DNA of 32,001 nt from an uncultured Akkermansia sp. GTDB taxonomy: Bacteria > Verrucomicrobiota > Verrucomicrobiia > Verrucomicrobiales > Akkermansiaceae. The position numbers and the translations under genes were made by a program. Location: contig CANRNS010000015.1 of assembly GCA_947632055.1 (NCBI GenBank), positions 1 to 32,001 on the forward strand. The letters run 5' to 3'. Shown here piece after piece: positions 21,933 through 31,534 of the stretch; positions within the stretch are counted from its first letter, which is position 1; each line of letters starts with the position of its first letter. A model generated the notes under the pieces. The model was not told the DNA's origin. It made no database searches and saw only the letters and a program-made list of their open reading frames with translations.

Positions 21933-22030
21933 ATTCAAATCTGTAAATCAGGAACATTTTAGGCGCTCATTTTCAATGCGCTAATTTATTCTTTTCCCTC
22001 CCCCATTTCATTAGTCGTTTGGCATGTCCT

Positions 22031-22214
22031 TCTCTTTTTGAAAGAGATAGTCAGACATATGGAGGCAACATGATATTAATGAAGGGGTAACGGTAGCGCC
22101 TTTTCAAAATAAGGTGAGATACGTGGAAACAATTTCGATTGGTTTAATTTCCTCTAGCAATTTTTATTCAAGGGTCGCATAATTTGGAACTTGACTATCT
22201 CTTTCAAAAAGAGA
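22031..22214. repeat. 23-bp perfect inverted repeat TCTCTTTTTGAAAGAGATAGTCA / TGACTATCTCTTTCAAAAAGAGA, 138-bp spacer
   Basis: Arms 22031-22053 and 22192-22214 are exact reverse complements. Confidence 0.95.
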
Positions 22215-22220
22215 TATACT
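22191..22220 (+). promoter_or_regulatory. Predicted promoter TTGACT-N18-TATACT overlapping the right inverted-repeat arm
   Basis: TTGACT 22191-22196, TATACT 22215-22220, about 60 nt before ATG 22281. Confidence 0.55.
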
Positions 22221-22280: not shown

Positions 22281-23335
22281 ATGTCCGAAAAAATAAAAAT
22301 TCGCCTTGAGGATCTTGTGCTTGATCCGGAGAAATACTATTTCTTTTACCCCCTACACTACGGAGATACCTTTTCAGGGGTCGGCTTTGTGAGGGAATTT
22401 GAGAGAAAAACAAATGCAAAGGTTGTCTGCCTGATACGCCCCTCCCAGGAACTCATCATGCGATTGTTTGAAATCGAGGAGTATGAACTTATCGATTATG
22501 ACTACAGCGAAACGAAAAGCTTTGATAAACGAATTGCCGCTTTGTCTAATTTATGTCCTCGTCCGCGTCGGGGTGGAATATTCGTTGCTTATACCAATTC
22601 ATCTGCTTACAGGAAATACCAATATGCAAACTCCCCTATGCATACAATGGAGCTCTATGCACACATGCTTCATATGAACGGATCTGTTCTGGACTGTTTC
22701 CAAAGACCAACAGCTCAACATATCTCCGTCAGTGATAGGTTCCTTGAAAAAATCTCTACCATAGCACCTGTTGAGAAAATTGTTTTACTATCCCCCCAAT
22801 CTCTCAGTTGCCCTATCAATGCCGAGGTGGGGAAAAATTACTGGGAAAATGAGTCTCGAATCTGGACGGAGAGGGGATACAAAGTCGTTGTCAGCAGCAT
22901 CAAACCAATGGAGATAGCAAGCTGCGCCGTACGGGTGGACATGACCATGGAAGAGGCTGTTTGGCTGGGAATCCATTGTCGCCATGTAACGGCAAGGAGA
23001 TCAGGTTATACGGATCTCCTGTGTTTCCTATGCAAAGACATGACCGTTGTGTATAACTCACATGGCTTTTTTTGTCCTACAATTTCTATGATCCATTTGG
23101 TTTAGAAATTAACGAGATTATTTTGCCTGAGGATGAAATGTGTGATGCAAATGGAATTCGTCTTTCCGTTGTTTCCGACATCAAAAATCTCAATCAACTT
23201 AAACGAAATTGGTGGATAGTGAGACTTTTCTCTCACATTACTTTTGGGCGCAAACGACGCAAATACAAAAAACAAAAGAGAGAACTCCGATACCGGATCA
23301 AAGAGGCGAAAGAAGCGAAAGAAATATTGAAATGA
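22281..23335 (+). pseudogene. Glycosyltransferase-like (GT-B/heptosyltransferase-like) gene split by a frameshift at a T7 tract
   Basis: ORFs 22281-23105 and 23072-23335 join as ...YNSHGFF-LSYNFYDPFGLEINEIILPEDEM... if one T is added to TTTTTTT (23067-23073). Confidence 0.55.
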
Positions 23336-29400: not shown

Positions 29401-31311
29401 TTATTGGGTGGAAAAGATATCACTAAGATATGGCATATGCCCCGGTCCAATGGAAATCACGAGAATATCCGGATGAAAAGAGAGAATTTCCTTTTCATAT
29501 AACTTCATGATCTTATACGTATCGATTCCCCTGGTCCAACCGGTATTCAATCTGATGTATCTTGTTCGAAACGCCGAATACGGCAAAAATTGGAGAAAAT
29601 CTTCATTCTGGGATGTGCCCATCAGCATGATATTGTATTTGCCCTTAGGATAGGTGAAATCTTTGGTGCTCTTTCCGACTTTCAGCTCTATTTTGTCAGC
29701 ATCTTTGTGATCATAGTAGATGTATGCAACACCGTTTACAGGCGGTTGATTAAGATTAAATGCCCTTTTGAAATATCCCGGATGATAATTTCTTGACCAA
29801 TCATCGCGGATGAGGCAATTCCTGGATTTTTTGCAGTCGTTGAGAGAAACAACAGGTATATCCGGGAAATCACGCTGTACCTCTTTCATCAATTCGCTGT
29901 ATCCAATATATGCCCCCCAATCCGTCCAATGATGGAGACGCTTGAAAAATACAAGATCCTGTTTTGAGGCATCGCAAAGTGCGTCGTACGGATAGACGTA
30001 GGGAATTTGGTGCTTTCTTACTTTCTTTAGAACGTCGTCATGTATTTGAGAGAATTGAACAAGAGGCGACTCATTAAAGCCGTATTTTTCTTTGATGATA
30101 TTTTTATAAACGCTTTCCTTTCTAGGGACTTCTAGCACGTAAAGTTTAATGTTGTTTTCTTGGCAGAATTTATTCAGTTGAACCAAATTCTTAACGATTG
30201 ATTGTTGGGTTGCCTGTAGATAATCTTTATTGGCAAGGGAGTTTACATCAAAATACCAATCATCTTGAGGAAAATAAATAGTACCTTTTCCACGCAAAAT
30301 AATGGACAATTCGTTTCGAATAGAATCGTGCAGTTGAATTAAAGCATCATGTCCGGAAAAATGATCATTTAACCAATCTTCGTATCTTTTGCCGTAGTCG
30401 GAATTCCTTTCAAAGAAATGTTTAAACGCTGGCTTTTCATATAGCATTCTGTTTTCCCGCACTGATCTCACCGCATCAGTGATATGTGTCATTGGAAAAA
30501 AAAGAAGGAAGAAGAACACCACCGTGAATATCACGTTGCAGGGTTGGAGATGTCTCTTCCGCTTTTCAAGGAGACGGAGCAACCGATAAAGCAGGAAGAA
30601 AAAGAGGAGATTCCCCGCAACAACATAACGAATTTTCCCGGATTTCAACCAGGTGAAGTCGCGGAGGGAAACACGATGCCTACGGAATTCAACTTCAATT
30701 TCAAGACGCTCATTTTTCTTGACAGAAAAGGATTGGGCGTAGTCCCCCTCATAGGCGCAATTCCCGGGCTCGTCGAACATCAAGTCATGGTTAAACTTAG
30801 GTGGCACCTGCTTTTCGACCGGAACGGATCGATCGACATCCCCCACATAGGAAAACGTCTTAGACTCGGTAAAGATTTGCTTGCCGTTGATTTTTAAATT
30901 CCTCCAGTCGGTTAACACATTGAAGGGCTCCTCATACTCATTACGCGCATCAGGTCCTACGTCAGGCCCCCTCATCAGTAGGGTTATCGTGCCATCGTGA
31001 AGAGCCTCAAGCTGAAGCGTAACCTTTTGCCATTCGCCCCGTGCTCTCAGGGTGAGATTGGCCCGCCTCGTGTTGTTGTCCTCATCCCCGCACCCGTACC
31101 AATAAAGTGTATCAACAGGCTGGGGACAACATTGGAGCCGAAAGGGTTCCACTGCTGTGAATTCCCCGGAATACACCACATCGAGGCGAGCTTCATCGTT
31201 GAAAAGAGTGCGAACAAAACTGCTGTAATCATATTCGGTCCACAACGGCAGACACAAAATATTGGCAAAGAGGGTCAGGCAAAAGGTAATCAGCAATATC
31301 TTTACACGCAT
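29401..31311 (-). CDS. AlgX/AlgJ/DHHW (SGNH-hydrolase-like) acetylation partner; start re-assigned to MRVKILLITF
   Basis: N-terminal TM, second TM region; FFKRLHHWTDWGAYIGYSELM motif, downstream MBOAT; start at 31386 would precede the predicted promoter. Confidence 0.78.
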   Translation of the reverse strand: MRVKILLITFCLTLFANILCLPLWTEYDYSSFVRTLFNDEARLDVVYSGEFTAVEPFRLQCCPQPVDTLYWYGCGDEDNNTRRANLTLRARGEWQKVTLQLEALHDGTITLLMRGPDVGPDARNEYEEPFNVLTDWRNLKINGKQIFTESKTFSYVGDVDRSVPVEKQVPPKFNHDLMFDEPGNCAYEGDYAQSFSVKKNERLEIEVEFRRHRVSLRDFTWLKSGKIRYVVAGNLLFFFLLYRLLRLLEKRKRHLQPCNVIFTVVFFFLLFFPMTHITDAVRSVRENRMLYEKPAFKHFFERNSDYGKRYEDWLNDHFSGHDALIQLHDSIRNELSIILRGKGTIYFPQDDWYFDVNSLANKDYLQATQQSIVKNLVQLNKFCQENNIKLYVLEVPRKESVYKNIIKEKYGFNESPLVQFSQIHDDVLKKVRKHQIPYVYPYDALCDASKQDLVFFKRLHHWTDWGAYIGYSELMKEVQRDFPDIPVVSLNDCKKSRNCLIRDDWSRNYHPGYFKRAFNLNQPPVNGVAYIYYDHKDADKIELKVGKSTKDFTYPKGKYNIMLMGTSQNEDFLQFLPYSAFRTRYIRLNTGWTRGIDTYKIMKLYEKEILSFHPDILVISIGPGHMPYLSDIFSTQ

Positions 31312-31344: not shown

Positions 31345-31373
31345 AGTATATCTCTTTTGGAAAGCGATGTCCA
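31345..31373 (-). promoter_or_regulatory. Predicted promoter TGGACA-N17-TATACT overlapping the left inverted-repeat arm
   Basis: Minus strand TGGACA (31368-31373), 17 nt, TATACT (31345-31350), about 33 nt before ATG 31311. Confidence 0.55.
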
Positions 31374-31534
31374 GCACGTTTTCCAAAATAACGTGACATT
31401 GTGCGACTTGTGAGGCAGAAACAATAAACTATGCTTTAAACCAAAGCATAGATCAATTGGAAAAACAGACTACAAATGCTTCTTTTTAAGCTAGTATGTC
31501 ATACAGGAAGAGAGCATCGCTTTCCAAAAGAGAT
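31350..31534. repeat. 20-bp perfect inverted repeat ATCTCTTTTGGAAAGCGATG / CATCGCTTTCCAAAAGAGAT, 145-bp spacer
   Basis: Arms 31350-31369 and 31515-31534 are exact reverse complements. Confidence 0.95.
31429..31451 (-). terminator. Hairpin CTATGCTTT-(5 nt)-AAAGCATAG followed on the minus strand by TTTATTGTTT
   Basis: 9-bp perfect stem inside the inverted-repeat spacer; T-rich only on the minus strand. Confidence 0.45.

Follow-up and report, generated by a model that had tools for sequence, protein, structure and literature searches.

A putative invertible promoter element in an uncultured Akkermansia and the genome-wide family of sites to which it belongs

Introduction

Does the perfect inverted repeat upstream of the gene at position 22281 in an uncultured Akkermansia frame a promoter segment that flips, and if so, which enzyme would turn it? 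The window analysed here, a stretch of 32,001 nt, is an entire contig of an assembly of 2.12 Mb in 151 contigs (87% complete). A first-pass annotation of the window had proposed a candidate invertible switch at this place.

Invertible promoter segments (invertons) are documented in the genus. Those of A. muciniphila carry CGGATT..AATCCG arms (motif of Jiang et al. 2019, as cited in PMC13343947). Its cps1 inverton has been observed in both orientations and tied to the capsule, and inversion-driven capsule phase variation matters for the hold of this species on mucus (PMC13343947). The part of PMC11892184 available to us presents the same motif as rediscovered under the name of group 138, with no linked invertase found. 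Our literature search returned no paper naming the enzyme responsible for capsule inversion in A. muciniphila.

Materials and methods

Loci were compared on sequence stretches around sites and recombinase genes (handles beginning with L), within and between genomes (G). Genes were called as the longest open reading frame, and the start of the gene facing the second element of the window was set downstream of its -10. Comparisons of homologous loci were made between paralogues, strains or species.

Results

Structure of the element in the window

The repeat is as the first-pass annotation had drawn it: the 23-bp arm at 22031-22053 recurs at 22192-22214 as its exact reverse complement, with 138 nt between the two, each arm is near-palindromic, the right arm fills the spacer of a promoter-like sequence (TTGACT, 18 nt, TATACT), and the left arm lacks a -10 in its outer flank. 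The true unit is a 19-nt near-palindrome, which sequence conservation widens to a 27-bp site of the form GNNN-19-NNNC. All features are listed in Table 1.

Table 1. Coordinates and predicted roles of the features of the two elements in the window and of the genes that they face
Feature	Position	Strand	Remarks
Left recombination site (putative), TTCTCTTTTTGAAAGAGAT, centre TTG	22030..22048	.	Outer flank AGGACA, no -10
Invertible interior (predicted)	22049..22196	.	Outward inner ends: left CTGACT, right TTGACT
Right inverton end (putative)	22145..22216 (or slightly beyond)	+	Predicted -35 end, ON orientation; 79-88% identity to inverton ends in G177, G187, G186 and G002
-35-like TTGACT	22191..22196	+	Within the predicted invertible segment
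Right recombination site (putative), ATCTCTTTCAAAAAGAGAT, centre CAA	22197..22215	.	Doubles as promoter spacer
-10-like TATACT	22215..22220	+	Beyond the predicted invertible segment; basis includes the gene-facing enrichment of the -10
Predicted target gene, 5' part	22281..23105	+	274 aa, no Pfam match
Same gene, 3' part in the other frame	23072..23335	+	87-aa open reading frame
Gene facing the second inverton	29401..31310	-	AlgX-like SGNH domain PF16822
Left site of the second inverton (putative), ATCTCTTTTGGAAAGCGAT	31350..31368	.	TATACT (31345-31350) and CTGGAC (31369-31374), minus strand
Right site of the second inverton (putative), ATCGCTTTCCAAAAGAGAT	31516..31534	.	Centre CCA, matching TGG

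We consider it very probable that 22030-22215 is an invertible promoter element. The proposed switch draws support from matched site centres, from homologous interiors that lie inverted, and from an Akkermansia inverton family of the same geometry. Mechanistically, a tyrosine recombinase would bind both palindromic sites and exchange strands across the 3-nt centre, which would have to match between partners, and the segment between the two sites would flip. Each site would form the spacer of a sigma-70-like promoter with its -35 side inside the segment and its -10 outside, so that the orientation of the segment would decide which of its ends meets a flanking -10, the -35 end (ON) or the opposite one (OFF); between divergent genes, each flip would hand transcription over to the other gene, as an either/or switch. 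The parts played by the enzyme and by the centre, the ON/OFF effect on expression and the flipping of the window copy are our inferences.

A family of paired sites across the genome

The first-pass annotation had suggested a search of the genome for further copies of the arm. With up to 2 mismatches, ATCTCTTTNNNAAAGAGAT occurs 94 times (reversed-pattern control: 0), and 19 strict pairs are separated by 140-170 bp (control: 0). In the window, the motif has 8 hits where 0.07 are expected. These counts exclude a chance origin of the window repeat. Both in the window copy and in the pairs of the genome, inverted repeats flank a short intergenic segment, and two-site clusters, in this genome and in the loci of relatives, are nearly all spaced by 164-170 bp with a peak at 167. 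Sites carry a G at -4 in 91% of cases and a C at +4 in 93%. The size and form of such a 27-bp site with a short crossover region would fit a tyrosine-recombinase site.

The 3-nt centres (TTG, TCG, TCA, TTA and others) are inverted-matched in 74 of 75 pairs, against 24.6 obtained by shuffling. This bears directly on what had been put forward as the main alternative, namely that the two sites are operators of a dimeric regulator and that a DNA loop between them shuts down the promoter of the right site with no inversion at all. Near-palindromic sites inside promoter spacers, at a distance of 167 bp or about 16 helical turns, would suit such a loop, yet palindromic operators need no inverted-matched centres, interiors occur inverted between conserved flanks, and a one-sided -35 end would be purposeless without inversion. 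We hold looping to be very improbable.

The sequence points to about thirty switches in the genome of the window, which lie upstream of genes for the sugar coat or for surface proteins. The genes behind two-site elements are mostly glycan genes (GT2, GT8, GT92, epimerases, DegT aminotransferase, cytidylyltransferase, acyltransferase), and a GT10 fucosyltransferase gene adjoins the four-site cluster L049. The named relatives rich in the motif are 'Lapin' isolates, which we take to be rabbit-gut metagenomes. Viral contigs were also searched for motif pairs and gave 0. The pair pattern has matches in unrelated taxa as well, e.g. Haemophilus and Goldbacteria.

The window itself holds one more pair than the single copy that the first-pass annotation had described: a second pair of the same motif at 31350-31534 had been missed. 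Its minus strand has a strong CTGGAC-N18-TATACT arrangement that faces the AlgX-type gene. Before a relative of this AlgX-like gene in genome G107 lies a perfect 19-bp inverted repeat, CTCTTTACCAATGCTGTGT (L211:999-1180), whose two copies share the same divergence in one half-site. This repeat adjoins the inverton of the G107 orthologue of the 22281 gene.

A putative promoter split by the recombination site

The proposal that inversion swaps the upstream half of the promoter can be extended to the family, with the -35 side usually inside the segment and the -10 outside. In the outward direction, the -35-like ends conform to the consensus TTTTTAnGCTGGAC or are of the TTGACT/TTGATT type, and directly abut the site. 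Exactly one inner end is -35-like in 55 of 67 elements under one definition (33.2 expected, p = 5e-8) and in 45 under a looser one (32.8 expected, p = 0.003). On the outer side, TAnnCT stands at 47 of the 96 ends directed at a gene start, compared with 7 of the 36 directed at a gene end (p = 0.003), while TGnGCA follows the opposite trend (7 of 96 and 10 of 36, respectively). As evidence for a promoter, this comparison of gene-facing ends weighs more, because the conservation of the hexamer partly belongs to the site itself. The layout supports a putative orientation-dependent promoter activity.

Both orientations among homologous loci

The best case is that of L138 and L169, from two contigs of a single MAG: their flanks are 93% identical on either side in the same sense and enclose an interior that is 87% identical when inverted vs 61% when read directly. 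Similarly, L145 and L212 are 79% identical in the adjacent left flank, and their interiors are 80% identical inverted vs 54% direct. Inverted interiors were likewise found for L097/L146 and L107/L155 and, within this genome, for L043/L062; the orientation is the same in L131/L134, L122/L151 and L104/L217. At the level of homologous loci, the alignments show that both orientations occur, the result of inversion in evolution or between strains. Moreover, 7 of 28 clusters lie within 600 bp of a contig end, with 8.5% expected (p = 0.008). An excess near contig ends is expected if mixed orientation breaks assemblies; repeats would do likewise.

Were the arms the terminal inverted repeats of a MITE, a short mobile element spread through Akkermansia, and the promoter incidental, one genome might well hold about 30 clusters of fixed length, and loci with unrelated flanks might have interiors in common, as in L042/L048 (89%) and L060/L061 (93%, inverted). 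Most interiors are nonetheless unrelated (244 similar pairs among 90 elements), the flanks of L138/L169 are kept on both sides while the interior is inverted, and a position at gene starts, a one-sided -35 end and three-site clusters are not MITE features. We give this explanation very little credence next to that of an invertible promoter.

As a separate observation, two sets of invertible segments of this genome (L042, L048, L056 and L057; L060 and L061) are 88-93% identical, at least one flank being unrelated, which suggests that promoter cassettes were duplicated or changed place. An origin of the common interiors in cassette exchange between loci was considered and is not supported, because the outer half-site variant and the short outer flanks are common too.

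Is the window copy a working switch?

According to the first-pass annotation, inversion of this copy would change only the first base of the -35. This is right for the hexamer (TTGACT to CTGACT), but about 70 nt upstream would change as well, since the right end resembles inverton ends in four other Akkermansia genomes (Table 1). Owing to the same resemblance, the assembly seems to show the 22281 gene in its predicted ON orientation. The doubt that had been expressed about the effect of the switch is partly upheld: a -35-like hexamer is found at either inner end, with low scores for the two ends on the -35 profile of the family, and therefore the change of expression may be small. An effect of inversion on expression at this copy is likely but not certain.

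The gene behind the element raises a related point. A frameshift at a run of 7 T near 23065 splits it in the window (23041-23100), and its orthologue in G107 (80% DNA identity) is intact with 354 aa and likewise stands behind an inverton, whose centre is TCG. The frameshift may mark a pseudogene, a (reversible) slipped-strand switch or an assembly error.

These features permit a reading in which the family is one of genuine invertons and the window copy is decayed or neutral, either because both orientations drive the gene or because the gene is dead. CTGACT at the other end, the low profile scores of both ends and the frameshift would agree with it. Against it stand arms and centre intact over 23 nt, a TATACT that faces the 22281 gene, a right end homologous to inverton ends elsewhere, the retention of an inverton at the same place in G107, and the possibility that the frameshift, which lies in the 7-T run, reflects reversible slippage or a faulty assembly. 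We regard decay or neutrality as unlikely, although deserving of far more weight than looping or a mobile element.

Three-site elements at giant surface-protein genes

Some clusters harbor three sites in a layout A-157-B-(126 to 143)-C, where A/B are inverted, B/C direct and A/C inverted. The -35 end of ordered three-site clusters is always inside C. When L125 is compared with L050 and L137, the A-B segment is inverted (94-95% vs 59-60%) and the B-C segment direct (92-93%); whether the surface-protein gene is next to A or next to C differs between loci. The inversion of A-B in L125, combined with the gene's position beside A or C, therefore indicates that at least two nested inversions occur. 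The centres of L058, in the window's own genome, read TTA-TCA-TAA, and match in the outer pair only.

Clusters of at least three sites go with genes for giant proteins starting MKLHLPTGLRKALL in this genome (9 of 9 vs 1 of 19, p = 1e-6), and the same association is found in the named loci (11 of 13 with at least three sites vs 8 of 40, p = 5e-5). The giant, repetitive, surface-type paralogues beside three-site elements have a common N-terminus, MKLHLPTGLRKALLACL, and mostly lack a Pfam match; their loci are L043, L049, L050, L052, L053, L058, L062 and L065. Three-site elements at such genes would allow multi-state control.

A candidate recombinase

A serine or a tyrosine recombinase had been suggested in the first-pass annotation as the kind of enzyme to look for. 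The serine-recombinase profile PF00239 has 0 matches in the 87%-complete assembly, and the same profile matches 10 of 14 control genomes. Among the PF00589 proteins of the genome, six constitute a family apart from XerC/D, with 36-93% identity, invariant catalytic R, K, DxxR, H and Y, and a distant resemblance to XerA/XerD structures. The family is present in 58 of 59 genomes of the genus, with up to 23 matches per genome among the matches listed.

The arm motif ATCTCTTT (at least 5 copies) occurs in 14 genomes of the genus. Relatives of one family member, L019, at 70% identity or more are found, among the matches listed, in 12 of these 14 genomes vs 0 of the 45 others (Fisher 8e-11, genomes being counted as independent of kinship); G186 (incomplete) and G146 possess the motif without such a relative among the matches listed. 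No sites adjoin the six recombinase genes in the stretches examined. The co-occurrence makes an L019-type member of this multicopy Akkermansia tyrosine-recombinase family the most likely enzyme, as a candidate.

Other arm motifs in the genus

Pairs of CGGATTNNNAATCCG with the same geometry are abundant in other genomes (60-98 sites in four). Pairs of the form CGGATT-N5-AATCCG were found in 0 of 59 genomes, the actual spacing being N3. A de novo search for palindromic pairs returned 1 in 306 kb of G152, revealing the CGCATT motif, and 0 in 341 kb of G145. This third motif, CGCATTNNNAATGCG, has about 20-48 sites in another set of genomes, counts that include about one tRNA-gene site per genome. 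Another site, CGCATTACGAATGCG, present once in nearly every genome and suspected to be dif, was rejected as it falls in an apparent tRNA gene.

Both palindrome families, ATCTCTTT and CGCATT, are found in G002, G151, G177, G181 and G186, which suggests two recombinase specificities within one cell. Hybrid sites ATCGCATTAGGAAAGAGAT, half CGCATT and half CTCTTT, are located at L044:5-23 and L059:57-75, at the starts of contigs C2 and C31 of G000.

Discussion

The observations can be gathered into a wider proposal, whose chances we judge evenly poised: a single Akkermansia inversion machine whose address is rewritten by lineage. Recombinase family and arms (CGGATT, CTCTTT, CGCATT) would have co-changed, certain genomes would have two motif systems side by side, and the 3-nt centre would act as a pairing code that restricts cross-recombination among the thirty or so half-promoter switches; these would include the three-site elements, with two or more nested inversions. 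A site motif that varies between species alongside one recombinase clade offers a concrete enzyme candidate and a built-in test of specificity, and surveys restricted to CGGATT would overlook switches of the CTCTTT type. As far as we found, the changed arms, the CGCATT motif, the recombinase candidate, the half-promoter layout and the three-site elements are new; the promoter layout may have been described in part in Jiang et al. 2019.

The closest known counterparts are the CGGATT invertons of A. muciniphila, which resemble the present elements in genus, in palindromic arms with a 3-nt centre, in inverted-matched pairs about 166 bp or 310 bp apart and in their location upstream of capsule and autotransporter-type surface genes. 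The difference resides in the arms, since the genome of the window has only 2 matches to the CGGATT palindrome. In Bacteroides, one serine recombinase, Mpi, controls multiple invertons. The present family would likewise rely on one enzyme class for many dispersed promoter switches of surface glycans, but no serine recombinase was found in the genome of the window. The fimS switch of E. coli (FimB/FimE; general knowledge, PMC9993118) is also a short invertible promoter segment between inverted repeats and is turned by tyrosine recombinases, the probable enzyme class here. It differs by its length of 314 bp, by holding the whole promoter inside and by its adjacent recombinase genes (general knowledge, PMC9993118), whereas our analysis points to about 30 dispersed switches with a promoter split by the site and no adjacent recombinase gene in the stretches examined. 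Finally, shufflons (R64 Rci; general knowledge, PMC11852207) share with the three- and four-site clusters an arrangement permitting several inversions; their sites are located within coding regions, and inversion there exchanges the C-terminus of a protein (general knowledge, PMC11852207), whereas the sites described here lie in putative promoters and two neighbouring ones are directly oriented.
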